This document shows, in pieces, positions 1-24,819 of a stretch of 29,783 nt of DNA. The notes under the pieces are model-generated. The model did no database searches. It was given only the letters and a program-made list of their open reading frames with translations, and was not told the origin of the DNA. Position 1 is the stretch's first letter, and every line of letters begins with the position of its first letter. Both the position numbers and the translations under genes were made by a program. This DNA comes from a virus, in IMG/VR virus record IMGVR_UViG_3300026510_000012, positions 1-29,783 of that record; one strand, 5' to 3'.

Positions 1-37
1 TTTTGTATTATTATAATTATAAAGCCAGACCGTCTAT

Positions 38-47
38 GGGGGGGGGG
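38..47. repeat. G10 homopolymer tract between GCCAGACC repeats
   Basis: Ten consecutive G in a very AT-rich context, flanked by two direct copies of GCCAGACC at 24-31 and 47-54. It lies outside any gene seen here. Long G tracts are typical slippage-prone contingency sites in Campylobacter and relatives; that it varies in length here is inference. Confidence 0.75.
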
Positions 48-116
48 CCAGACCATAATATTAAATTATAATAAATTTTAAAACTAGCTAATAAATTTAA
101 GCGTAGTTTAATCTTT

Positions 117-174
117 ATTACGTTATACGCATGTGTCTCATATAATCGCGCGGCGCGCATGCGTATAACGTAAT
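117..174. repeat. 17-bp perfect inverted repeat with GC-rich loop
   Basis: Arms at 117-133 and 158-174 are perfect reverse complements (left arm begins attacgttatacgcatg). The 24-base loop contains a TATAAT (141-146) and a CGCGCGGCGCG stretch (147-157) that can itself fold. The GC-rich island is out of character with the surrounding AT-rich DNA. It could be an operator, a terminator for transcription from the left, or a replication or packaging signal. Confidence 0.7.
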
Positions 175-237
175 TAATATTAAAATCTAATATGATATTA
201 ATATTAATATAAAAATTTAATATAGATTTAAGTTCTA

Positions 238-271
238 TTTAATCTGGTTTTAATATTAAAAAGCATATAAT
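238..271 (+). promoter_or_regulatory. Promoter P2, phased TTTAAT / TATAAT type
   Basis: TTTAAT at 238-243, a second TTTAAT at 249-254, and a TATAAT -10 box at 266-271. This is the shared pattern TTTAAT, 5 bases, TTTAAT, 11 bases, TATAAT. The expected start is near 278, within or just before a TATCAAAAG segment also found after the promoter at 4273. It would give a leader of about 110 bases to the gene at 389. Confidence 0.6.
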
Positions 272-328
272 ATAAGTATCAAAAGAGAGAGAATAGCAGA
301 TTAAATTAATTAGAAAGTTTCTTTTCAA

Positions 329-362
329 TTTAATCTTAAACTAATCTTTCTTATGATATAAT
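329..362 (+). promoter_or_regulatory. Promoter P1, phased TTTAAT / TATAAT type
   Basis: TTTAAT at 329-334 (extended TTTAATCT), a weaker ACTAAT at 340-345, then TG one base before TATAAT at 357-362 (an extended -10). Start-to-start distance of the outer hexamers is 28 bases, as in the other promoters of this set. It sits just upstream of the ribosome binding site of the gene at 389 and likely drives the first three small genes. Confidence 0.65.
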
Positions 363-388
363 TATAATATAAAAATAAAGGATAGAAG

Positions 389-586
389 ATGAAAAAACTA
401 AATGTAAGTGACTTAATTGTAGACGACCGTGTTATATATAGTTATATAACTATAGAAGATACTATAGTGTTAACCATAGTTATAAAACCTAATAAAGCTG
501 ATAGTTATTACTTTGATATATATAGAATATTACAAGGTTTTAATTGTACTTATAGTGAAAATAAATTATATGTAACTATATCTTAG
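389..586 (+). CDS. Small hypothetical early protein, 65 aa
   Basis: I do not recognise this protein. It begins 17 bases after an AAAGGA ribosome binding site region and directly downstream of promoter P1, so it is the first gene of the rightward early block. The sequence alternates hydrophobic and charged residues (for example VIYSYITIEDTIVLTIVIK, residues 15-33) and is predicted by eye to be beta-rich, without an obvious membrane helix, signal peptide or metal-binding motif. Position suggests an early host-takeover or regulatory role, but nothing in the sequence shows which. Confidence is for its being a real gene. Confidence 0.65.
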   Translation: MKKLNVSDLIVDDRVIYSYITIEDTIVLTIVIKPNKADSYYFDIYRILQGFNCTYSENKLYVTIS

Positions 587-610
587 AGCGACTCTCGAGC
601 CGTTCTATAG
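584..610 (+). other. Weak hairpin in the 389-653 intergenic gap
   Basis: An imperfect stem (agagcg with cgttct, one G-U pair) lies just after the stop codon. It is followed by TATAGATACTAGTTTATAG, which resembles the sequence following the hairpin at 1117-1134. Possibly an RNA processing or partial termination element. Confidence 0.3.
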
Positions 611-652
611 ATACTAGTTTATAGTGTCAAATTAACCAAATAGGAGTCTATT

Positions 653-1108
653 ATGACTAAAACAGAATTATATAACAAAGTGAGTGTAGAAGTGCTCGAA
701 CTACTAGAGTCGCAGCCAAAATTGTCAAAAGCATTTAAAGAAAAACTATCTAATATATTAGATACTAATTTAAGACCAAAGAGTGGTGGAAATGCAATGA
801 ATCCACCAAAAGAGATTGATGGGATAATGCACTACTATTGCCGATTCCATCAACGGTATGAACCTCAAGAAGATATGGTTATATCTAAGGACAAATCGAA
901 AGGGTATTGTAAAGCTTCAATATCTAAATGGAATAAAATAAACAGCCAAATCAAAAAACTTGACTCTAAAGCCGTTGAGGCAATGGCTAACGGTGACTTT
1001 GAAAAAGCTCAGGAACTTGCTAAAGAGGCAAAGGCTCTTAAAGGCTCTCTCAATAATCCAGAGACTTATGACTATGAGCAGGATTGGTTAGTCTTCAGAG
1101 GTGAGTAG
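653..1108 (+). CDS. Hypothetical early protein, 151 aa, possible zinc site; paralogue of the protein at 7438
   Basis: Function unknown. It is preceded by a good ribosome binding site (taggagtctatt before ATG). The N-terminus is helical, with FKEKLSNILDTNLRPKSGG at about residues 28-46. That matches the same place in the 163-residue protein at 7438 (F.EKL..IL..NL.PK..G), so I read the two as diverged paralogues. The middle has CRFHQRYEP and SKGYCKASISKWNK, a C/H...C pattern that could bind zinc as in small phage ribbon proteins. The C-terminus is a charged, alanine-rich helix (about residues 98-130), also echoed in the paralogue. A UUCG-loop hairpin follows the stop codon, as it does after the paralogue. 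Family assignment is by eye only. Confidence 0.65.
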   Translation: MTKTELYNKVSVEVLELLESQPKLSKAFKEKLSNILDTNLRPKSGGNAMNPPKEIDGIMHYYCRFHQRYEPQEDMVISKDKSKGYCKASISKWNKINSQIKKLDSKAVEAMANGDFEKAQELAKEAKALKGSLNNPETYDYEQDWLVFRGE

Positions 1109-1116
1109 TTTCTTAT

Positions 1117-1134
1117 GACTCTCTTCGGAGGGTC
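1117..1134 (+). terminator. UUCG tetraloop hairpin after the 653 gene
   Basis: A 7-bp stem (gactctc / gagggtc, one G-U pair) closes a cTTCGg tetraloop, a very stable RNA fold. Only a few T follow, so it may be a weak terminator or an mRNA-stability/processing hairpin between the 653 and 1224 genes rather than a full terminator. Confidence 0.5.
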
Positions 1135-1223
1135 TTATAGATACTATTTGTATCATATTAATACTAAGGATTATACTTTTGTAACTAACTATAGTACCTT
1201 AGAACTATATAAGGAGTTTAGCC

Positions 1224-1436
1224 ATGACAGTGAAATATAAAACCACAACTATAACTATGGAGGCTACTATGGTATATTGTAGTAGACTAATAAATAATAA
1301 GCAATATAAGCTGGAAGTGCCTATTAATGCTATTGATGTTAATGATTTGCTAACTAAATGCGTACGAGTGTCAAAGCTAGACGATAGCATGTTTGTAGAA
1401 CTAAGCAGAATACAGCGAGGTGCTATTGAACTATAG
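1224..1436 (+). CDS. Small hypothetical early protein, 70 aa
   Basis: Unknown function. The start is supported by ataaggag placed well before the ATG. The protein is beta-like at first (VKYKTTTITMEATMVYC, residues 3-19) and then has a mixed segment LEVPINAIDVNDLLTKCVRVS. Length and style resemble the 65-residue protein at 389, but I see no clear sequence relationship. It is the last gene before the iteron region, and T-rich DNA after its stop may help end transcription. An overlapping minus-strand frame (1205-1390) was judged a shadow because it has no ribosome binding site and lies antisense to this well-started gene. Confidence 0.6.
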   Translation: MTVKYKTTTITMEATMVYCSRLINNKQYKLEVPINAIDVNDLLTKCVRVSKLDDSMFVELSRIQRGAIEL

Positions 1437-1489
1437 TTGCTGTTCTATTTTGTTTTATTTTATTATCTATTTTAATTATAAATAAATAT

Positions 1490-1747
1490 AATAAGACAAA
1501 TAAGACAAATAAGACAAATAAGACAATATAAAATATATAAAAAGACGTAAAAGACGCAAAAGACTAATAAGCTGAACAGGACTGCGCAGTTGAATCACAT
1601 TCCCTTACATAAAGAGCCTCCGTCTTCTGTCTTTTGTCTTATTCGTCCCCAAGTTGTCCAATTGGAGCACAGCTAAACCACAATAAGACAAATAAGACAA
1701 ATAAGACAAATAAGACAATCCAACACATCAATAAGACTAATAAGACC
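1490..1747. other. Iteron field, candidate replication origin
   Basis: The 9-bp unit AATAAGACA occurs four times in tandem at 1490-1525, followed by three variants (AAAGACGTA, AAAGACGCA, AAAGACTAA) at 1541-1567. An inverted cluster lies at 1626-1643 (TCTGTCTTT, TGTCTTATT), with more partial units just before it. Four further direct copies lie at 1682-1717, and two variants at 1730-1747. Between the clusters (1568-1681) is a more GC-rich unique stretch. AT-rich DNA lies on both sides (1441-1490 and 1748-1811). Direct and inverted iterons beside an AT-rich region and just upstream of a primase-helicase gene are the usual layout of an initiator-dependent origin. No gene is seen between 1437 and 1840. 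Confidence 0.7.
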
Positions 1748-1783
1748 AGCAAACTAAAATAAGTTTTTGAATTAATAAAAAAT

Positions 1784-1817
1784 TTTAATATATTTTTAAT
1801 AAATAATATGATATAAT
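1784..1817 (+). promoter_or_regulatory. Promoter P3, phased TTTAAT / TATAAT type
   Basis: TTTAAT at 1784-1789 and again at 1795-1800, then TG, one base and TATAAT at 1812-1817 (extended -10). TATCAA follows, as in other members of the set. It lies immediately right of the iterons and should drive the gene at 1841 and the primase-helicase. Iteron-bound protein could therefore also control this promoter. Confidence 0.65.
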
Positions 1818-1840
1818 ATCAACAAATAAAAAGGAATATT

Positions 1841-2071
1841 ATGAATTATGAGCAATGGATAGAATATATCAAAACAAACAAGGACCCACTTTATTGGGAA
1901 CGTATAGTATCATTTGCACCAGAAATAGCTATGGATATTAAAGAGTACAAGCACCACATAGTATCTAAGAAAATAGGCTTCAAACACTCTACCTCATTTT
2001 CAATAGTTAAACCTCTAATACTGGCAATTGCCTCACGTGAGGAGGCTACTAATGCTACTAATGCCCACTAG
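1841..2071 (+). CDS. Small hypothetical protein upstream of the primase-helicase, 76 aa
   Basis: Not recognised. It starts after an AAAAAGGAATATT ribosome binding site just downstream of promoter P3. It is mostly polar and helical (EQWIEYIKTNKDPLYWERI at residues 4-22), with a basic central part (KEYKHHIVSKKIGFKHS). Its 3' end overlaps the supported start of the primase-helicase by 20 bases, and that gene's ribosome binding site (GGAGG at 2041-2045) lies inside it, so the two are translationally coupled. Its place between the iterons and the replicative primase-helicase makes an origin-binding or helicase-loading role possible, but that is inference from position only. Confidence 0.65.
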   Translation: MNYEQWIEYIKTNKDPLYWERIVSFAPEIAMDIKEYKHHIVSKKIGFKHSTSFSIVKPLILAIASREEATNATNAH

Positions 2072-4244
2072 TATACAAATAGTATCGCTCAACACACCTA
2101 AGGACTTTAAGGTAACACCAGAAACCAAGAAACAACTTAGTAACTACTACCGTAAAATAAAGTGGGGTGACCAAAACAATCAAGAGACTACCACCCTTGA
2201 CAAACTAGCTACTCTAGACACAGTGTATATAGTACCGACTACAAACCTCACTATAATAGACTTTGATACAGATGAGAGTTTTGAGGAGGCACTAAGATAC
2301 AATTCACAACTACAAGCACAATACCAATGTGCATATATAGTTAAGAGCTTAAGGAAAGGTGGACACTTCTATTACTTAGAGGACACTAGTATCCAACTGC
2401 CAGCACAACATACTAAGCAATCGACATTAGACATATTAAGCGGACCAACTCATAATGTTATTGCACCTACACTGGCAGAAACTGGTAAGGAAATACTATA
2501 CCACAATGATGCCTACACACTAACTAAATATAACACTGCTATTAACACTTTAATATCGAATATAGTTATTAATTCACTACCAAAGAATGCTAGGGCGATA
2601 GCACTATCGCCATTAGAGAGGAACTCTGACAATGCAGCCACACTAGTTAAGGAATACTTAGCGAACTTAATTACACAACACCAGTTTAATGAATTCTACA
2701 GCTTACCAGACCCTATACCACCACAGCAATCTAACGAGGTATATAAGCGACTAAGTACTCGTCTAGCATCAGACTTAACAATTAATCATGAAGACTATAT
2801 AGCGACCATGGAGAAATATAACCAGTATACAGGTAGGAAAACTCAGGCAGAGTTACACTCAGAGCATATACAGAGGATGCTAAGTAACACTAATGGACTA
2901 TGGAGATATGATCTAGATGCAGTAACTAAGCAAGTGACATATACTGTAACACATAAGGAGATTAAAACACCTATAGAAGTATTTTACGATTCATCAACTG
3001 GAGAGTATTTAGTGAGTTATAAAGATAGTAAGGCACAGCAGATACTATACCACTTAAAGAACAAATCTGTATATATAGAGTTAATGGAGAAGATAACTAG
3101 AGTGCGGCCAGAGCAACTACGTAGGGATACCACTAAAATTAAGACAGTAACTACCTATGCTGACTATTCTAAGGACTATGGTTATCATGGTAATAAGTTT
3201 AATATAGCAATTCATAACCGTTACCTACAGGCATTTAATGGCGCTAAACCTAGTACATACTCTACACCATATAGGTTTATAGAGTTATTACAATATATGT
3301 GGGGTGATGAGTATGAGTATCTTATAGGTGCTATGAAATATAGATATTCTACATTTGAGTATACACCAGTGGTAACACACATAGTTGGTGAGGAAGGTAC
3401 AGGGAAAGACCTCTCAATAAATATAATGACTAAAGGATTCTCAGAGCCAGCACAAAGCTTAGACTATACTTTAATGAAAGATAAACACTCAAACTGGCAA
3501 ACTAAAGAGAATGTAATATTTTCAGAGGTTGGGGAATGGAGATTTTCAGAGCAAGATGATATGCTAGAGAGACTTAAAACAATATCAGGGTCTAACGGTA
3601 TAGTAACGTATAGAGGGATGCAGCAGACAGCCACAACAGTACAGAGTATAATAAAAATATGGGTTACTGGGAATTCATGGGCTAAACTACACACTGATAT
3701 AAACTCATCACGTAGGATACATACAGTATATATGCCGATGCCACTAGAAAAACTTAGAGGTGGTAACTATGACAAGAGTGACCTTGATGCGCTTATGTCT
3801 GAGGCTTCACTGCTTGATTTTTACTACTGGTTAGGGAATGAGTGTACTATAACAGTAACAAGGGAAGAGTATAGTAGTGCCTATTCACGACAGCACTCTC
3901 AGTCATATCTAACGTATATTGAGGCCACTTCAGATAAATCAGATACAGCTTCTAACCTACTATATAAAGACCAGAGATACTCAACATATAGTAAGGTATT
4001 AGAGATGTTCCAGCTCTCTCCACAAGATATAGAGTATAAATATGACAAGTCTAATAACTACCTAGTTAATGCTAAGAGCTTACAGGATAAGTTAAAGGCT
4101 TCAGGTGCTTCGTATATACTAGCTAAGACAATAGATAATATAGTAGCCAGAACTAATAATAACAAAAGGGTAATATTTGACTCAGGGAAGTATAAATATA
4201 TAACCATATTAAATGCACCTAAGGAAATAGAAGACCTCTCATAA
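2052..4244 (+). CDS. Primase-polymerase (AEP) fused to SF3-type helicase
   Basis: Bifunctional replication protein of about 730 residues. The N-terminal archaeo-eukaryotic primase domain shows the three expected motifs: IIDFDTD (Asp70 and Asp72), SLRKGGHFYYL (His105) and LDILSG (Asp127). The C-terminal half is a DUF5906/D5-like SF3 helicase: Walker A VGEEGTGKD near residues 445-453, Walker B-like NVIFSEVGEW, and the sensor segment IIKIWVTGNSW. Length and domain order match the deep-sea vent phage NrS-1 polymerase type. The Walker A lysine is followed by Asp rather than Ser/Thr. I chose ATG 2052 because GGAGG lies six bases before it; an in-frame TTG at 2028 has no such support. The gene directly follows the iteron field, so the protein is the likely initiator, primase and replicative helicase. 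Biochemistry is inferred from family. Confidence 0.85.
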   Translation: MLLMPTSIQIVSLNTPKDFKVTPETKKQLSNYYRKIKWGDQNNQETTTLDKLATLDTVYIVPTTNLTIIDFDTDESFEEALRYNSQLQAQYQCAYIVKSLRKGGHFYYLEDTSIQLPAQHTKQSTLDILSGPTHNVIAPTLAETGKEILYHNDAYTLTKYNTAINTLISNIVINSLPKNARAIALSPLERNSDNAATLVKEYLANLITQHQFNEFYSLPDPIPPQQSNEVYKRLSTRLASDLTINHEDYIATMEKYNQYTGRKTQAELHSEHIQRMLSNTNGLWRYDLDAVTKQVTYTVTHKEIKTPIEVFYDSSTGEYLVSYKDSKAQQILYHLKNKSVYIELMEKITRVRPEQLRRDTTKIKTVTTYADYSKDYGYHGNKFNIAIHNRYLQAFNGAKPSTYSTPYRFIELLQYMWGDEYEYLIGAMKYRYSTFEYTPVVTHIVGEEGTGKDLSINIMTKGFSEPAQSLDYTLMKDKHSNWQTKENVIFSEVGEWRFSEQDDMLERLKTISGSNGIVTYRGMQQTATTVQSIIKIWVTGNSWAKLHTDINSSRRIHTVYMPMPLEKLRGGNYDKSDLDALMSEASLLDFYYWLGNECTITVTREEYSSAYSRQHSQSYLTYIEATSDKSDTASNLLYKDQRYSTYSKVLEMFQLSPQDIEYKYDKSNNYLVNAKSLQDKLKASGASYILAKTIDNIVARTNNNKRVIFDSGKYKYITILNAPKEIEDLS

Positions 4245-4251
4245 TTAGAGG
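4235..4251 (+). terminator. Weak hairpin at the end of the primase-helicase gene
   Basis: A 5-bp stem cctct/agagg spans the stop codon and is followed by attaattta. It is short, and a new promoter follows at 4273, so it may give partial termination only. Confidence 0.3.
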
Positions 4252-4272
4252 ATTAATTTATAAATCTAGGAA

Positions 4273-4306
4273 TTTAATAAGATTTTAATATATTATTCGT
4301 TATAAT
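4273..4306 (+). promoter_or_regulatory. Promoter P4, phased TTTAAT / TATAAT type
   Basis: TTTAAT at 4273-4278 and 4284-4289, then TATAAT at 4301-4306 preceded by CGT. The spacing equals that of the promoters at 238, 329, 1784 and 7301. TATCAAAAG follows at about 4312. It likely drives the block of small genes from 4336 through the helicase at 6077. Confidence 0.65.
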
Positions 4307-4335
4307 TATATATATCAAAAGAAGGAAATAAAGAA

Positions 4336-4536
4336 ATGATACAAGATATGTTAGCAGAAGCTAGACGTGAAGAGCTAGAAGAGCATATGTTAAGAACTGA
4401 CTTTGACTATGCTATTGAGAAAGCCTTTAATAATTTTGAGCTAGAAGAAGCTTATAATAAGTTTAAAGAAGCCTCAGATTGGCTATCAAAGTATGGGCAT
4501 GAAATGTCACCACTAGATGTGTTTAAGGAGTTGTAA
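4336..4536 (+). CDS. Small acidic helical hypothetical protein, 66 aa
   Basis: Unknown. It starts after gaaggaaataaaga just downstream of promoter P4. The sequence is almost entirely charged helix (for example EEAYNKFKEASDWLSKYGH at residues 37-55) with a strong acidic bias, no cysteine and no membrane segment. Small acidic phage proteins made early sometimes act as DNA mimics or host-protein inhibitors, but nothing here proves that. Its 3' end carries AAGGAG (4525-4530), which is well placed for a 16-codon reading frame starting at 4536. Confidence 0.6.
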   Translation: MIQDMLAEARREELEEHMLRTDFDYAIEKAFNNFELEEAYNKFKEASDWLSKYGHEMSPLDVFKEL

Positions 4537-12073: not shown

Positions 12074-12430
12074 ATGGTAGTAGGAACTATATTATTAACA
12101 AAGAGTAATAAATACATTGATACAGAAGGTAAATTACCTAAACGTCCAAAATTTGATAAAGAGCTATTAGCAGGATTGCTAAATAGTAATCCGGTTAGTG
12201 AAGAAGGCTATAAATTATTACCACCTTCACTACAAGCTTTATGTTATACTTCAATAGCTCCACAAATGAGAGTCCCAATAACTATTATAGAACTGGCTAA
12301 AGCAGAGTTACTAATAGTTTCTAGAAGTCCAGAAGACTTTGAAGGCGGTAAAGAGTTTAGGTTAGATAATTTTAAATGTTTAGTAAAAGATAGAAAGGTT
12401 GAATTATGGATTTTAAACAAGAAGCAATAA
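12074..12430 (+). CDS. Short DHFR-like protein, 118 aa
   Basis: Possible compact or degenerate dihydrofolate reductase. The N-terminus VVGTILLTKSNKYIDTEGK, then LP and RPKFDKELL, follows the DHFR pattern (strand, N.I...G.LP, then the folate Asp/Glu helix). GYKLLPPSLQ (45-54) recalls the GR.T..SLPPSLR segment. The end, LLIVSRSPEDFEGGKEF then a strand pair (about 79-114), recalls the DHFR ending with DFEGDT.F. However, it is about 40 residues shorter than typical DHFR and I cannot find the IGG.E.Y NADPH loop. It sits directly after the thymidylate synthase homologue, the classic place for DHFR. It could be an active minimal enzyme, a structural relic, or chance similarity. AAAGG is six bases before the start. 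Confidence 0.45.
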   Translation: MVVGTILLTKSNKYIDTEGKLPKRPKFDKELLAGLLNSNPVSEEGYKLLPPSLQALCYTSIAPQMRVPITIIELAKAELLIVSRSPEDFEGGKEFRLDNFKCLVKDRKVELWILNKKQ

Positions 12431-13026
12431 AAGAGGCACAAAAGTCCCCCTGCCAAAAACGTAAAGTAGGGGCTATTATAGTTAATAAGACTGGTAAAAT
12501 ATTAGCCCGTGGGCATAACTATCATCCTAATAATGATGATTGTGAGGACTTAGATGGAAATACTAAGCCTAATGTTATACATGCTGAGATTGCTGCGCTT
12601 AAACAACTAGAGGTTACTACAACTAGTGAAAGTACTATATATATAACGCATCCACCATGTAAAAATTGTTCTAAAGCTATTAAAAATCATAACTTAGAAG
12701 TAGTAATTATAGAAGACTTCATGAAATTTGATCGTGGTAAGCTTCGTTATGGATTAATACCACCAGAGGCTACTAAAGCGCTAGCTGAGGTATTAACATA
12801 TGGCGCTAAGAAATATAAGCCTAATAATTGGCAGAAAGCAGACGATACTTCTAGATACATTGACGCTTTATATAGGCATCTTGAGGCTTGGCGTGGTGGT
12901 GAAAAATTCGATAGTGAGAGTAAGTTACCTCATTTAGCTCATGCTCTCACTAATATTGCATTTTTAATTTATTTTGAAGATAAAATCAATCAAAATAATC
13001 ATATATCTCACATATATGGAGTTTAA
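12406..13026 (+). CDS. dCMP deaminase fused to a dATP/dGTP diphosphohydrolase-like (DUF5664) domain
   Basis: Two-domain nucleotide enzyme, 206 residues. Residues 1-105 are a zinc-dependent deoxycytidylate deaminase: the HAEIAALKQLE motif (His59, catalytic Glu61) and HPPCKNC (Cys85, Cys88). That would turn dCMP into dUMP. Residues 108-192 match DUF5664, known in some phages as the dATP/dGTP diphosphohydrolase (MazZ-like) domain: KFDRGKLRYGLIPPEA, LTYGAKKY, NW, SRYIDALYRHLEAWRGGE and LPHLAHALTNIAFLIYFE. That fold removes pyrophosphate from purine dNTPs in phages that alter their dNTP pool. The deaminase half is short, so regulation by dCTP/dTTP may be lacking. Start 12406 has AAAGG seven bases before it and lies inside the end of the DHFR-like gene. 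An intrinsic terminator follows. Confidence 0.8.
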   Translation: MDFKQEAIKEAQKSPCQKRKVGAIIVNKTGKILARGHNYHPNNDDCEDLDGNTKPNVIHAEIAALKQLEVTTTSESTIYITHPPCKNCSKAIKNHNLEVVIIEDFMKFDRGKLRYGLIPPEATKALAEVLTYGAKKYKPNNWQKADDTSRYIDALYRHLEAWRGGEKFDSESKLPHLAHALTNIAFLIYFEDKINQNNHISHIYGV

Positions 13027-15681: not shown

Positions 15682-16952
15682 GCTCTATAGTACCGTATAA
15701 ACACCAAATTGAAAAGGCAGAACAATGTTGGAATATATTAAAAGAGCATGGTTACGTTTATTTAGCAGGAAAGCCAAGAACAGGAAAGACCCTAACGAGC
15801 CTTTTGATTTCAGAGAGCTCTACAAATATCAGCAGTATTCTGATTTTAACGAAGAAGATGGCAATACCAGGGTGGGAGAAATTCATTACAAATATGGACC
15901 TCAAACATAAATATTACGTTACAAACTATGAGCAAGTAGGTAAGTGGGATAACGCTAAACGTAAAGCAATACTTAAGTTAAAACCTAGTGATTACCAACT
16001 AGTAATAATTGATGAATCACATAATCTAGGTACGCTAGGTAAGCCATCTGGTAGATATAAAACTATAAAGTCATTATGTTATAATATGCCACATATACAC
16101 CTTAGTGGTACAGCAATAGTAGAGAGTCCAAATAGTATTTACCACCAGATGAGCATTAGTAAATTTAGCCCATTTAAGTTTAAGAACTTTTATGACTTCT
16201 TTAGGGTGTATGGTAAGCCATATACTATTAAGGCAGCTGGCAGAGAGATAGCACAGTATGATAGATATAAGCCTGAACTATTAGATGAAATTAATAAGTT
16301 TACAGTTTATATGAGCCAAGAAGAGGCTGGCATACCTAGTAGTTTACAGGCTATAGATAAACTACACTATGTAGAATTAAATGCTAATACTAATAGATTA
16401 TATAATACGTTACAAAAAGATAATATAGCTCTTATTTGGAAAGATTGTTTAATTGATAGCCCTATTTGCCCAGAAGCAGACGGGTCAATCCACCTAGTTT
16501 GTGATAGTACAATGAAACTAAGAACCAGTTTGCATATGTTGGAATCAGGTATAGCTAAGATTAATGATAGTTATATAGAGCTAGGCAATACTGAAAAACT
16601 AGACTATATCTATAATACATTTGGAGATACAGAAGATGTTGGAATTATGTGCCACTTTGTAGGTGAACGTATAATATTAGAAAAGAAGTTTAAATACGCT
16701 AAGATATATAGCTCTACATCGCATGCTGAGGGAGTAGACTTAAGCCACCTTAAACATTTTGTTATAATGTCTAGTGGATATAGTGGCTCAAAGTTTATTC
16801 AACGTAGAGATAGAATAGTTAATCTTAATGGCTCTAATACACTAACTGTTAACCATATACTTGTTAAAGGTGCAATTAGTGAACAAGTATATAAGACAAC
16901 TTCAAAGAAAGAAGACTTCAACAATTCTACTTATGAAGCTAATATTATTTAG
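15678..16952 (+). CDS. SNF2/DEAD-like SF2 helicase
   Basis: ATP-dependent DNA translocase, 424 residues from ATG 15678. Motif I AGKPRTGKT (about 30-38), motif II IIDESHN (DESH at 112-115), motif III LSGTAIV, motif V SSTSHAEGVDL and motif VI QRRDRIVNLNG are all visible, as in phage SNF2-type helicases. An in-frame ATG at 15648 would overlap the mini-membrane gene; ATGA coupling at 15678 is more natural, though the ribosome binding site there is weak. Gene order VRR-NUC then helicase is widespread in phages and suggests the two act together in recombination or junction processing. It ends the rightward genes: its stop overlaps the last codons of the leftward virion gene by eight bases within a hairpin. 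Confidence 0.85.
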   Translation: MSSIVPYKHQIEKAEQCWNILKEHGYVYLAGKPRTGKTLTSLLISESSTNISSILILTKKMAIPGWEKFITNMDLKHKYYVTNYEQVGKWDNAKRKAILKLKPSDYQLVIIDESHNLGTLGKPSGRYKTIKSLCYNMPHIHLSGTAIVESPNSIYHQMSISKFSPFKFKNFYDFFRVYGKPYTIKAAGREIAQYDRYKPELLDEINKFTVYMSQEEAGIPSSLQAIDKLHYVELNANTNRLYNTLQKDNIALIWKDCLIDSPICPEADGSIHLVCDSTMKLRTSLHMLESGIAKINDSYIELGNTEKLDYIYNTFGDTEDVGIMCHFVGERIILEKKFKYAKIYSSTSHAEGVDLSHLKHFVIMSSGYSGSKFIQRRDRIVNLNGSNTLTVNHILVKGAISEQVYKTTSKKEDFNNSTYEANII

Positions 16953-16960
16953 CTTCATAA
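16931..16960. terminator. Bidirectional terminator hairpin spanning the convergent stop codons
   Basis: Perfect 12-bp arms (16931-16942 ttatgaagctaa and 16949-16960 ttagcttcataa) with loop TATTAT. The + strand exit is TTTATT. The loop and inner arm hold both stop codons: TAG 16950-16952 of the helicase and TAA 16947-16945 (minus strand) of the virion protein. It probably ends transcription from both sides. Confidence 0.7.
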
Positions 16961-19911
16961 TTTATTAATCTATTAGTTAGTCTATTACTAGATAATTTTT
17001 TATCTATATTAATAACTGACTCTTTAATCTTATTGTAATCATTACCACCACTTTTTAAATATTTTAATAACTTACCATGTCTACCACCAGATTGTATATC
17101 ACCATTATATGCTAACATAAAAACCAGGTCTTTAACTTTAGTAGGTAATTTATTATATTTATCCTCTAGTACTCTATTTAAACTAGACTCTACCCTAGTT
17201 GATACTCTATTGTACAGCACAGATGCTTGCTGCTCATCTATACCATACTTTAAGTTTTTAATACCTGCAGCTTTAAAATCATTAGTTTTATACTTACTAT
17301 TTTGCTTTAAGTCATACCCATAACCTATAGTAGGATGCCCCATAACAAGTTTAACTTTACTGTTAAAGCCTTCAACATCCTTAATATACTTAGGTACTTC
17401 ATATTCAGTAGGTGCCCCCATTGTCATATCTATACCAGTATTTAATTTTTTAGGCTCATAATATACCTTTAATTGTTGCCCAGGCTTAAGACTATTTGTA
17501 GTTAAGTTATTATCTTTCTTAATACTATTTACTGTTGTGTTAAGCCTTTTAGCAATTTTAGACAAGTTATCCCCAGGCAATACTGTATAATCAGTAGCAT
17601 TACTATTTGAAACAAGTCCTAGTGAAGCTCCTGTTATTAACATAGCTTGTAATTTATGAACATTAGGTTTACTCTTTTTAAACTCAGTAAGTAAATTTCT
17701 TGTTAGGTTTTTAGTATACTCATTAATAGTACCTTTCTTAGCAGGATATGTTAAAGCATCCCAAGTTAAAGATTTAAGTAACTTTGCAGTACCTTTAGCT
17801 ACTCCAGCTAATGATGCATCATAAGCACTTGTAGCCTCTCTCCAAAATGTAGTTGGCTCACCTACATTTTTACCTATTAAATTATTTAACTTATGTAAAG
17901 CTATAAAATTATCAAGACCCTTAGTACCATATATCTCTTTAGCTAGCTCTCTACCATCTTGCGTGGATACTATATCTGATAATACATTATCAACTTTAGT
18001 TGTACTAAGATTATAACCTTTAGATAGTGATGAGGTATCAACTAATTGTTTAGGACTTATACCTAGTATCTTACTAGCATATGTTTTCTTTATATCTTTC
18101 ATTGCAGACTCAGGTAGTATTTTACCATACTGCTTAAATGCTTCTACTGCACCAGCTTTATCATTAACCATAAGAGCGCTATTAAATTTCTCTATTACAC
18201 CTATTTCATTAGCATTAAGTATTTTACCATCTATATTAGTCTTAATACCTTTATTCTTACCGGATAGGGCATAACCGAATAAATCGAATAGCTTAGAACT
18301 CTTTTGTTTAGCATCTGTATATAATGCCTGTGCTTCTTTAGGTACTAGGTTATCTAGAGTTTCATCTACTATACTGTTTATCTGCTTTAACTCACCTAAT
18401 TGTAGCTGGTTACCACCATCTATAGTGCCACCCTTAACATATACTTTATGGTTAAACTCCTGTTTAGCTTTAAGTAGGTCACCAAGGGTTATAGTTTTCC
18501 CTATTCTCTCTTTTTCTGTAGCTTTAAATTCATATTCTAATTTCTTTATTTCATTATTATAATACTTTTCTGACGCCGCACGAGCTGCACCTCTTTTACC
18601 CTTTAATGCTAAAGCCTTTGTATCTTTAAGAGATATTATTTTATCTTTTATATTCTGCCCTACAGTGTCAAGACCAGTTCTTGAGCCAAGTAATGTACGC
18701 TTAACAAAATCTCTTACAGTAGCATTAGATATAGTGGAGTCTATTTTTTTAAATAGGCCATTTTCCCAGTCCTTAGTTATAGCTAATTCTGGGTCATAGT
18801 TTTCTGAGAAGCGTTTCCATGCCTGGTCAGCCTCAGTCTTCCTGGAGGTATACACCTTAGTCATTTCATCTTGTACTACCTTAGCCATTTTATTTACTGT
18901 TAAATCTGATTTACTAAGATTATTAGACATCTCTACTAACTGGGATGTTTCAACATCCTTATACTTTTTCTTTATATTAGTAATAAGTGTATCCATAAAA
19001 GCATTACCAGTTTTAGCCTCTTTTCCTGCACCCTCCCAAGCAGTCTTAGGTATAGTTATATCATGCTCTGAGGCAAAACTAATTGCTTTAAGCATATCAT
19101 TACCTAACTCTGGTTGTTCTTGTACTATCTTGGTTATATTAGCCCTAGTGGTGCTTTTAATAGGGCTAACTAGGTCCTTGGCACTATCCACCAACTCACC
19201 ATTAATAGCTTTCGTAAATACTGTACCTGCAACAGATAAAGCCTTAGTTATACCAGCATCTATTAGCCCATGCTCTATACCCTTAACTAGTGCTTTACTA
19301 GCATCTTTACTATTAGCCCATTCTTCAGTTGCTCCTAGTGTAGCGCCAACACCAAAGTTCTTGGCAACTGATAACCCTGTCTTAGCATATGCTAGTGCAT
19401 ATGTAGCGGACTGCCCGATATTCTCAGCGCTTAATATATCATCAGAGCCGTTATCCTTTATATATTCTTTAAGCTTAGTATATGCTTCAACTTCCTTTGT
19501 GCTATCCATACCTAGCGTATCCTTAATAGTAACTGCAGCAGCAGCAGTAGGTATCCTAGCTCCTGCTATAAATAGTGTAGCACTATCATATATATCACTC
19601 AATAAATCTGATGATTCACTAGTGTTTACTTGCTCTTGAGTCATAGTACTAGTGTTATCTTCTGATTGTACCATGTCGATATTAGATGGCTGCTCAATAC
19701 TAGGTTGTTCAATACTGGGTTGTTCAATACTAGGTTGTTCAATACTAGGTTGTTCAATACTAGGTTGTTCAATACTAGGTTGTTCAATACTAGGTTGCTC
19801 CATTGGCTGGAGCTCAAACCCTTCTGGTAATGGTGGTAAATTAGTATCTTGTACACTATTAATAGACTCATTAGCAAGCTCAAACCCTTCTGGTAATGAT
19901 GGTATATTCAT
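16945..19911 (-). CDS. Internal virion protein with LysM and lysozyme-like C-terminus, 988 aa
   Basis: Large particle protein, probably ejected into the host to open the wall. The N-terminus has two LPEGFEL units (residues 6-12 and 28-34), then seven SIEQP repeats (41-75). A long helical body follows (about 100-770). Near the end is a LysM peptidoglycan-binding domain (about 774-817: YTVLPGDNLSKIAKRLNTT, SLKPGQQLKVYY) and a T4-type lysozyme fold (about 840-985) with VEGF (Glu847) and HPTIGYGYD (Thr861). The Asp expected six residues before that Thr is Leu855, so activity may be reduced. It starts one base into the portal stop codon (TAATG) with AGGAG upstream, and is the last gene of the late operon. 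It is like T7 gp16 in role rather than in sequence. Confidence 0.8.
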   Translation of the reverse strand: MNIPSLPEGFELANESINSVQDTNLPPLPEGFELQPMEQPSIEQPSIEQPSIEQPSIEQPSIEQPSIEQPSIEQPSNIDMVQSEDNTSTMTQEQVNTSESSDLLSDIYDSATLFIAGARIPTAAAAVTIKDTLGMDSTKEVEAYTKLKEYIKDNGSDDILSAENIGQSATYALAYAKTGLSVAKNFGVGATLGATEEWANSKDASKALVKGIEHGLIDAGITKALSVAGTVFTKAINGELVDSAKDLVSPIKSTTRANITKIVQEQPELGNDMLKAISFASEHDITIPKTAWEGAGKEAKTGNAFMDTLITNIKKKYKDVETSQLVEMSNNLSKSDLTVNKMAKVVQDEMTKVYTSRKTEADQAWKRFSENYDPELAITKDWENGLFKKIDSTISNATVRDFVKRTLLGSRTGLDTVGQNIKDKIISLKDTKALALKGKRGAARAASEKYYNNEIKKLEYEFKATEKERIGKTITLGDLLKAKQEFNHKVYVKGGTIDGGNQLQLGELKQINSIVDETLDNLVPKEAQALYTDAKQKSSKLFDLFGYALSGKNKGIKTNIDGKILNANEIGVIEKFNSALMVNDKAGAVEAFKQYGKILPESAMKDIKKTYASKILGISPKQLVDTSSLSKGYNLSTTKVDNVLSDIVSTQDGRELAKEIYGTKGLDNFIALHKLNNLIGKNVGEPTTFWREATSAYDASLAGVAKGTAKLLKSLTWDALTYPAKKGTINEYTKNLTRNLLTEFKKSKPNVHKLQAMLITGASLGLVSNSNATDYTVLPGDNLSKIAKRLNTTVNSIKKDNNLTTNSLKPGQQLKVYYEPKKLNTGIDMTMGAPTEYEVPKYIKDVEGFNSKVKLVMGHPTIGYGYDLKQNSKYKTNDFKAAGIKNLKYGIDEQQASVLYNRVSTRVESSLNRVLEDKYNKLPTKVKDLVFMLAYNGDIQSGGRHGKLLKYLKSGGNDYNKIKESVINIDKKLSSNRLTNRLINYEAK
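19687..19791 (-). repeat. Seven 15-bp tandem repeats encoding SIEQP
   Basis: Nearly identical 15-bp units, one with a single base change, encode seven SIEQP pentapeptides in the virion protein, preceded by one MEQP. Such uniform DNA suggests recent expansion by slippage. The unit number stays in frame whatever its length. Confidence 0.9.
19811..19904 (-). repeat. Direct repeat encoding PLPEGFEL near the N-terminus of the virion protein
   Basis: Two 28-base copies (19811-19837 and 19877-19904) differ at about one position and encode the two LPEGFEL segments. A similar motif is common at the start of other phage internal virion proteins, so it may be a short recognition or packing peptide. Confidence 0.75.
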
Positions 19912-23403: not shown

Positions 23404-24819
23404 CTAGTAACTAACTAATGAGCTAATACCACTAGCAAGACCACCCGTCAAATCTCCAACTGAGCCACTTACTTTATCATAAGTACTGGCTTGTCTATCA
23501 TATACTCCTGATGTTAGCCTAGCTTGCTCATTAGCCATACTAGTTTTAGCATTCACAGTAGTAGCATACCTAGATGCATCAGCAGCTCTAGCAGAATTAG
23601 ACATACTAGCGTCTGCTGATATCCTAGCAGATGCTACTCTTGAACTTGCAGCCATAGAAGCAGATGCAATACTAGCATCTGCACCGAGTTTAGCACTAGA
23701 CATTGAAGCAACATTATTTAAAGCTGATGTTTTTTGCGGTAAACCAATAGATAAAAAGTTCTGCCTTTTTTCTGCAGCGATATCATCAGCTGAGTTAATT
23801 GTATCACCTCTTTGATATGCTTGTTGTATAGCTATATCTGTAAGACTTTGTGCAGCTATGCCACTATCACTAAGACCTCTCTGCCCTAGTGTACGTAATA
23901 AATTATCAGAAGCCTGCTGGTACTGAGAGTCAATAGAGTTTAGTTTCTTTGCCACTACATCCATACCATCATAGTTATCATAGTATATTTTTAATTTTTG
24001 CTCAGTACTGCCATATAAGTCATCCCATTTACTAACCTGCTCTTTAGCATACCCTATTTCACCAGATCCACCACTACTAGCTCCACCACTATAGCCACCA
24101 CTACTAGCTCTGCCACCAGCTCCGCCACCAGCTCCACCATAGCTACCACCAGCTCCGCTACCAGCTCCACCACCAGCTCCGCCAGCTCCGCCACCAGCTT
24201 CTCCAAATATATCACCCATAGCAGAAGAATATATACCATTAATAGAAGCTATACTCTGTGTAGCCATTTCATCTTGATTACCACCAAGTAAATATTTATG
24301 TGCTGCATTATTAACAGAGTCAGTAGCTTTTTTTACTTGTGTTTCTACTGACTTTGCACCCTTAGTAATTTCACTATCTACAGCTCTACCAGCTCTTTTT
24401 ACTTGTGTTTCTACTGACTTCGCACCATTAGTAGTTTCCCTATCTACAGCTCTACCAGCTCTTTTTACTTGTGTTTCTACTGACTTCGTACCACTATGTA
24501 ATTCTTGCCCTGTTTTCTCTATAACTTTTACAGGGGTAGCTACTACAGATTCTACGGGCTTTATTACTCGATCACTAGTAAATTTATCTATACTTTTACC
24601 AGCAGCTTTTATTTGAGACGTAGGATTTTTAACTGTTTTAACTACGGTATTAGGTGTATCAATTACTGTATTATATGTATTACGTACTACTTTTTCACTA
24701 CTTTTAACTGCTTGCTTTGTAGCATGCTCTATACCTTTACCTGCGCTACTAACACCTTTTTCTATACTTTTACCTACAGATTTGACACCTTTTTCTACTT
24801 CCTTAAAAGGGTTACCCAT
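23404..24819 (-). CDS. Probable internal virion protein with repeats and Gly-rich linker, 471 aa
   Basis: Unassigned virion-type protein. Residues 1-105 are Lys/Ser/Val-rich and amphipathic (EVEKGVKSVGKSIEKGVSSA). Then come three 22-residue repeats (110-131, 132-153, 154-175; core G.KSVETQVKRAGRAVD), which would form a regular coiled or amphipathic rod. A Gly/Ala/Ser linker (about 208-253) separates this from a helical Ala/Ser-rich C-terminal domain (NLLRTLGQRGLSDSGIAAQS, then SSAKLGADASIASASMAASS), a composition typical of podovirus ejection proteins. AAGGAG precedes the ATG, which overlaps the GNAT stop (TAATG). It probably works with the 542- and 988-residue proteins in DNA delivery. Confidence 0.65.
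   Translation of the reverse strand: MGNPFKEVEKGVKSVGKSIEKGVSSAGKGIEHATKQAVKSSEKVVRNTYNTVIDTPNTVVKTVKNPTSQIKAAGKSIDKFTSDRVIKPVESVVATPVKVIEKTGQELHSGTKSVETQVKRAGRAVDRETTNGAKSVETQVKRAGRAVDSEITKGAKSVETQVKKATDSVNNAAHKYLLGGNQDEMATQSIASINGIYSSAMGDIFGEAGGGAGGAGGGAGSGAGGSYGGAGGGAGGRASSGGYSGGASSGGSGEIGYAKEQVSKWDDLYGSTEQKLKIYYDNYDGMDVVAKKLNSIDSQYQQASDNLLRTLGQRGLSDSGIAAQSLTDIAIQQAYQRGDTINSADDIAAEKRQNFLSIGLPQKTSALNNVASMSSAKLGADASIASASMAASSRVASARISADASMSNSARAADASRYATTVNAKTSMANEQARLTSGVYDRQASTYDKVSGSVGDLTGGLASGISSLVSY
24061..24198 (-). repeat. Gly/Ala/Ser-rich low-complexity linker
   Basis: GGC/GGT-GCT type codons encode about 46 residues of mostly Gly, Ala and Ser in the 471-residue virion protein. It is locally GC-rich and internally repetitive. 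Likely a flexible linker. Confidence 0.8.
24295..24492 (-). repeat. Three 66-bp tandem repeats (22-aa units)
   Basis: Each unit encodes G-A/T-K-SVETQVK-R/K-A.. and the first two are nearly identical in DNA. They form a repeated amphipathic segment within the 471-residue virion protein. Confidence 0.8.

Follow-up and report, generated by a model that had tools for sequence, protein, structure and literature searches.

The 404-bp gap at positions 1437–1840 of the window (the whole stretch of viral DNA analysed, 29,783 nucleotides) is non-coding, without a credible ORF, and is probably the iteron-type replication origin of the phage. This putative assignment is the best supported reading of the gap because a repeat array is found at the same place in five relatives, its units have turned over while the layout was kept, a block of very low stability lies alongside and a gene for a PrimPol-helicase is adjacent. 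The initial annotation had proposed a plasmid-like, initiator-controlled origin; the iteron-origin part of that proposal is supported. No match to a Rep_3-type initiator or a similar Pfam family was found among the 20 early proteins scanned.

The array comprises about 16 units of 9 bp on both strands, spans 260 bp and runs in the order direct, inverted, direct (Table 1). As the initial annotation had described, eight exact copies of AATAAGACA form two tandem blocks of four (starts 1490, 1499, 1508 and 1517, and 1682, 1691, 1700 and 1709; blocks 1490–1525 and 1682–1717), with AAAAGAC variants every 9 bp and a minus-strand cluster with 7-bp spacing between them. The left AT-rich block holds a further degenerate reverse pair (1442–1460). 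The most frequent 9-mer occurs eight times in the gap, compared with at most six times in 500 dinucleotide shuffles, the sequence matches itself strongly at lag 9 (z = 8.0), compared with z values of 2.6 and 4.0 at lags 8 and 10, and 11 of the 12 AATAAGAC sites of the 29.8-kb window fall inside the gap. The gap thus shows a hallmark of iteron origins, a single non-coding region with several short, nearly identical repeats that are in phase. Its single-strand fold is somewhat better than that of shuffles (z −2.4), as explained by the inverted repeats. Other repeats occur elsewhere in the record, with seven 15-bp repeats at 19694–19797 coding for (IEQPS)n near the N terminus of a 988-residue late protein (16945–19911, minus strand) and 66-bp repeats (2.7 copies) at 24325–24503 within the gene of a 471-residue late protein.

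Table 1. Features of the repeat-bearing gap and of the two genes downstream of it
Feature	Position	Strand	Description
Left AT-rich block	1442–1488	none	Two iteron-like units (1442, 1452) forming a degenerate inverted pair; low stability
Direct cluster Ia	1490–1525	+	Four exact AATAAGACA, no spacer
Direct cluster Ib	1541–1565	+	Three AAAAGAC, one every 9 bp; RGAC-to-RGAC distance from Ia 22 bp
Central block	1572–1621	none	Less AT-rich (CAGTTGAAYCACATTCCCTTACRTAAAGAGCC); from alignment and stability
Inverted cluster	1622–1645	−	Three units: AGAAGAC, AAAAGAC, AATAAGAC
Direct cluster II	1682–1746	+	Four exact AATAAGACA and two additional AATAAGAC (1730, 1739)
Right AT-rich block	1759–1818	none	Putative unwinding element and promoter of the HTH-helicase operon
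Small HTH-like protein, 76 aa	1841–2071	+	ORF; profile; AlphaFold (AF2) model
Diverged PrimPol + DUF5906 (D5/SF3-type) helicase, 727 aa	2061–4244	+	Domain matches, profiles, model
C-terminal winged-helix-like region	Helicase residues ~640–717		Predicted

The AT-rich DNA noted in the gap was found to form two low-stability blocks, both of which sit outside the arrays, with more stable DNA between the arrays. The 60 bp of the right block are among the least stable 0.03% of the record, and the array is thus accompanied by the adjacent AT-rich, low-stability element expected of an iteron origin. A promoter had been placed right at the iterons; a TATAAT at 1487–1492 does abut the first unit, but the strongest promoter-like match, TATGATATAAT at 1807–1817, lies ~60 bp past the last iteron, so that the conserved promoter-like block is apart from the repeats, and general promoter scans of the gap were at chance level. 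Autoregulation through the motif at 1807–1817 or that at 1487–1492 is possible. An Rfam scan of positions 1–4500 returned no RNA family. GC skew, which had been suggested as a check, was rejected as an origin test, as it follows gene direction and is uninformative on the origin.

Searches with the helicase identified six viral relatives, two at 91–93% identity (G001 and G002) and four at ~47–49%, and further viral scans yielded no records beyond these. A genome scan gave one match, a short MAG contig (L010) with 256 bp upstream. This 3.5-kb contig, assigned to a Thermoproteota MAG, has genes for the phage HTH protein and primase-helicase and is probably a misbinned phage contig. A search for the same iterons in related phages had been suggested as a check; an array was found in place in five of them, but in three (G003, G004 and G005) it is written in other letters, and G006 has the same two genes yet no detectable iterons in the gap (rank 137 in the scan described below). 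The unit is AAATAAGAC in the window phage, TAATAAGAC in G001, AA[T/A]A[A/G]GAC in G002, AAATATACT in G003, AAATATATC in G004 and AAATATCAT in G005. Both close relatives keep the RGAC core of clusters Ia and Ib at the same 9-9-9-22-9-9 spacing as the window phage, in G002 despite drift of the other letters of the unit. The three more distant phages, whose helicases are ~48% identical, have an array at the same place that again consists of 9-bp units, first direct and then inverted. Inverted units are present in all five relatives, and the full direct, inverted, direct order is seen in the window phage and G001–G004, with G005 having direct and inverted clusters. Tandem CTACTAAGTA units lie 3′ of the iteron clusters in G005 (L024:1478–1516), where an additional ORF of ~108 residues also separates the array from the HTH gene.

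An unbiased scan was made of every 400-bp window (step 100) in the seven phage records, scoring the best 9-mer family, with one mismatch and on both strands, against dinucleotide shuffles. In the window record, G001, G002, G004 and G005 (295–440 windows each), the top rank went to the gap before the HTH-helicase operon. In G003 this gap came sixth among 105 windows, and four of the five above it lie on a coding repeat. The units of G003–G005 were first picked by eye, and unit densities computed for those letters are not independent of that choice; the scan, which chooses its own 9-mer, recovered the G004 and G005 arrays as the top of their genomes. The HTH gene of G003 carries this coding repeat at its 3′ end (L003:4893–4977), as eight to nine in-frame ACTAAAGAC units that encode repeated Thr-Lys-Asp. 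With AAGAC every 9 bp, the repeat matches the iterons of the window phage in core and spacing and may be an iteron array within coding sequence.

Across the three close phages, identity is 91% in the left AT-rich block, 81% in cluster Ia, 90% in cluster Ib and 79% in the right AT-rich block, compared with 52% in the next coding sequence, the HTH gene; conservation is uneven over the gap, with the spacer at 1646–1680 only 29% identical. A function for the gap is argued from non-coding blocks that are better kept than the neighboring gene. Slippage in AT-rich DNA can produce tandem 9-mers and AT-rich units, and the record does contain other repeats, but functionless drift is very improbable as the source of an array that is better conserved than the adjacent coding sequence and recurs in synteny with four different units, inverted copies and fixed spacing.

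The first gene after the array encodes the 76-residue protein, a homologue of which was found by its profile in six of the seven records; the G005 homologue was read from the end of its contig. Its AlphaFold model (pLDDT 89.4) is helical with an HTH-like pair at residues 38–44 and 50 onward, and the predicted structure fits a DNA-binding role. Comparison of the protein with Pfam and PHROGs gave weak single-member matches only, its sequence profile found nothing meaningful among PDB sequences, and the best hit in a fold look-up of the model, a transcription repressor with Z of 4.0, was not decisive. The HTH region is identical at 20 of 21 positions between the window phage and G001 and at 6 of 21 between the window phage and G002, in which the N-terminal part of the protein is still ~77% identical to that of the window phage. 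The G002 gap also carries a repeated AAGACAAGCGAATTCTCCCAAAAGAC element (L002:2071–2130), and this may be a new operator for the altered HTH.

The proximity of this gene raises the question of whether the units are operators only, with the HTH protein or another phage regulator controlling early promoters at 1487–1492 and 1807–1817 and replication starting elsewhere. The promoter-like motifs on both flanks and the transcription regulators among the weak fold matches of the model (Z ≤ 4.0) would suit such an arrangement. However, some 16 units on two strands over 260 bp far exceed usual operators, the units are absent from the other promoters of the record, with all but one of the AATAAGAC sites confined to the gap, and the AT-rich block is extremely unstable. 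Moreover, the RGAC core and its spacing stay the same in G002, where the HTH region has been replaced. An operator array without origin function consequently appears unlikely, although it is the strongest of the competing explanations.

The helicase gene overlaps the HTH gene by 11 bp, and the two candidate initiator genes adjoin the array directly downstream, an arrangement conserved in the relatives. The predicted primase-polymerase-SF3 helicase of the initial annotation is supported by PHROG primase matches in all eight members of the helicase family, by DUF5906 and Prim-Pol matches in relatives and by hhalign comparison with the primases of KF-1, VPMS1 and PH1 (probability 99%). The Pfam DUF5906 match is above cutoff in G006 and just below it in L010, and that to Prim-Pol is below cutoff in G006, G003 and L010; the window helicase itself has a Prim-Pol match under the curated cutoff and no DUF5906 match, and its family assignment is made because its relatives and profiles match. 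By domains, PHROG matches and alignability, it belongs to the D5/SF3-type primase-helicases of KF-1-like podophages. The whole-helicase AlphaFold model is poor (pLDDT 52.9), but its C-terminal 90 residues are predicted to form a helix-strand-helix-helix-strand arrangement with a pLDDT of ~70–85 that resembles a winged helix. Foldseek with the helicase model gave no meaningful match, and sequence profiles of the helicase and of its C terminus found nothing meaningful among PDB sequences. The winged helix is tentative, given the poor overall model and the empty fold search. No relative of the helicase was found in the plasmid collection.

In the mechanism we propose, an initiator would bind the 9-bp units, which have an RGAC core in this phage, in the direct, inverted and direct blocks and melt a flanking AT-rich block, most likely that at 1759–1818. 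The PrimPol-DUF5906 helicase would assemble there, unwind the DNA and prime synthesis by the phage family A polymerase, loading itself in the manner of P4, SaPI and SCCmec Cch2; these steps of assembly on the iterons, melting and priming are drawn by analogy with SCCmec Cch2, SaPI Rep and P4 α. By the same analogy, the reader of the iterons is somewhat more likely to be the C-terminal winged-helix-like domain of the helicase itself, in which case the small HTH protein would act as co-initiator or regulate the operon. The helicase is favored because G002, despite its replaced HTH region, keeps the RGAC core, the spacing of that core and a nearly unchanged helicase C terminus, which is almost invariant among the window phage, G001 and G002. 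As a less probable but reasonable alternative, the iterons would be read by the HTH protein, which would then bring in the helicase; letters outside the core of the G002 unit have drifted too, and this could point to the HTH protein as reader.

The initial annotation regarded such an origin as unusual beside a T7-like replisome. This description is not supported, as cultured podophages of the KF-1/VPMS1/PH1 type share the replication cassette, without iterons at this spot. The genes of the window phage run in the order 151-residue protein, HTH protein, primase-helicase, Dda-like helicase, gp2.5-like SSB, family A polymerase, thymidylate synthase, deaminase, MazG, ResIII-type helicase, ligase and VRR-NUC. 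A single ORF at 12406–13026 joins a dCMP deaminase domain to a dATP/dGTP diphosphohydrolase N-terminal domain. KF-1 (Kafunavirus), Vibrio phage VPMS1, Pseudoalteromonas phage PH1 and MW202744 have in common this helicase family, the Dda-like helicase, SSB, family A polymerase and ligase. The replisome is of the kind found in this podophage assemblage and not that of T7, since KF-1, VPMS1 and PH1 resemble it in genes and order, and the PrimPol-helicase is, judged from gene content, the normal replicative helicase of the assemblage. KF-1 and VPMS1 also have an HTH-type protein ahead of the primase-helicase. Unlike in the window phage, no long gap or iterons were seen at the syntenic spot in VPMS1, KF-1 or PH1, whose helicases are ~21% identical to that of the window phage; just 63–71 bp separate the upstream gene from the HTH gene in KF-1 and VPMS1. 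The array seems peculiar to the clade of the window phage because of these short, iteron-free spacers.

MW202744 likewise shows no iterons at this spot, but PH1 and MW202744 have other repeat arrays at different places. In PH1, the gap that separates terminase from early genes holds ~330 bp of tandem 8-bp units of degenerate sequence (CTGGACGT; L047:23118–23450), and in MW202744 a non-coding gap close to the early genes has CCTAAAACAGTGC repeated roughly every 20 bp (L048:110–290). The PH1 array, together with the position of the iterons, 1.2–5.5 kb away from the early end in the orientation used for the assemblies, might suggest a packaging site (pac, bound by TerS) near the early end of the genome. 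This is improbable, however, as the array is tied in five relatives to the HTH-helicase operon and not to terminase genes, which are located away from the primase operon in KF-1-like genomes.

Self-loading helicases that act at iteron origins are already known. The P4 primase is of the bacterial TOPRIM type, and the ori and crr of P4 lie far apart. P4 α is a primase-helicase whose winged-helix domain reads origin repeats (summarised in PMC4234260), and the window phage has a primase-helicase near repeats, for whose C terminus winged-helix-like secondary structure is predicted (pLDDT 70–85) and searches by fold and by sequence gave no match. In PICI origins, an AT-rich region lies between two sets of iterons (PMC6092414), and the SaPI/PICI module (Rep or Pri-Rep) combines a self-loading helicase initiator, short iteron sets and an AT-rich melting block alongside (PMC6092414, PMC7581432), a combination that is putatively present here. 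The PICI layout of iteron sets 3′ of rep flanking the AT-rich block was not found: in SaPI/PICI the iterons are directly 3′ of rep, whereas here they are 5′ of the HTH-helicase operon with the AT-rich blocks outside the arrays. The present replicon also differs in being a podophage that encodes a polymerase of its own and in having a PrimPol-type primase domain. SCCmec Cch2 (D5/Primase_Cterm) is similarly a D5-type helicase beside short direct repeats, and its C-terminal domain binds these AAGTG iterons (PMC7581432), but its three 5-nt iterons lie 3′ of the gene and its primase is separate, in contrast to ~16 units of 9 bp on the 5′ side and a fused PrimPol. In the crenarchaeal plasmid pRN1 (orf56/orf904), the gene of a small repressor precedes that of a replication protein with PrimPol, SF3 and winged-helix parts (PMC4234260), the gene order found here, where the HTH and winged helix are predicted only; pRN1 has no iterons, and its proposed origin is a stem-loop of ~100 nt 3′ of orf904. 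A pRN1-like stem-loop 3′ of the helicase gene was considered and rejected, as positions 4230–4345 fold no better than shuffles (z 0.5).

What is new here is the fused PrimPol-DUF5906 protein, the 5′ place of the array, the presence on both strands of 9-bp units without spacers, and a layout that stays fixed as the unit letters turn over. Within incomplete literature coverage, no report linking DUF5906 to iterons was found and no title or abstract describes a phage system of PrimPol, SF3 helicase and iterons; nor was an origin with its cognate initiator found described for this podophage assemblage in the literature searched. A broader proposal, which we regard as speculative and rather unlikely in full, is that this podophage clade has an iteron origin of fixed direct-inverted-direct layout and 9-bp unit whose letters change together with a self-loading PrimPol-D5 helicase reading them through its C-terminal winged helix, the (Thr-Lys-Asp)n stretch in the HTH gene of G003 being a second, in-frame nine-base array with an AAGAC core.

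The authors of the pRN1 study proposed that PrimPol-SF3-type proteins assemble at stem-loops (PMC4234260). If the origin reading is true, initiators of this type can use iterons instead, and the phages would provide a natural series of matched origin-initiator pairs, with different 9-bp units in one frame, in which initiator specificity, helicase self-loading and origin layout would be testable by swaps.
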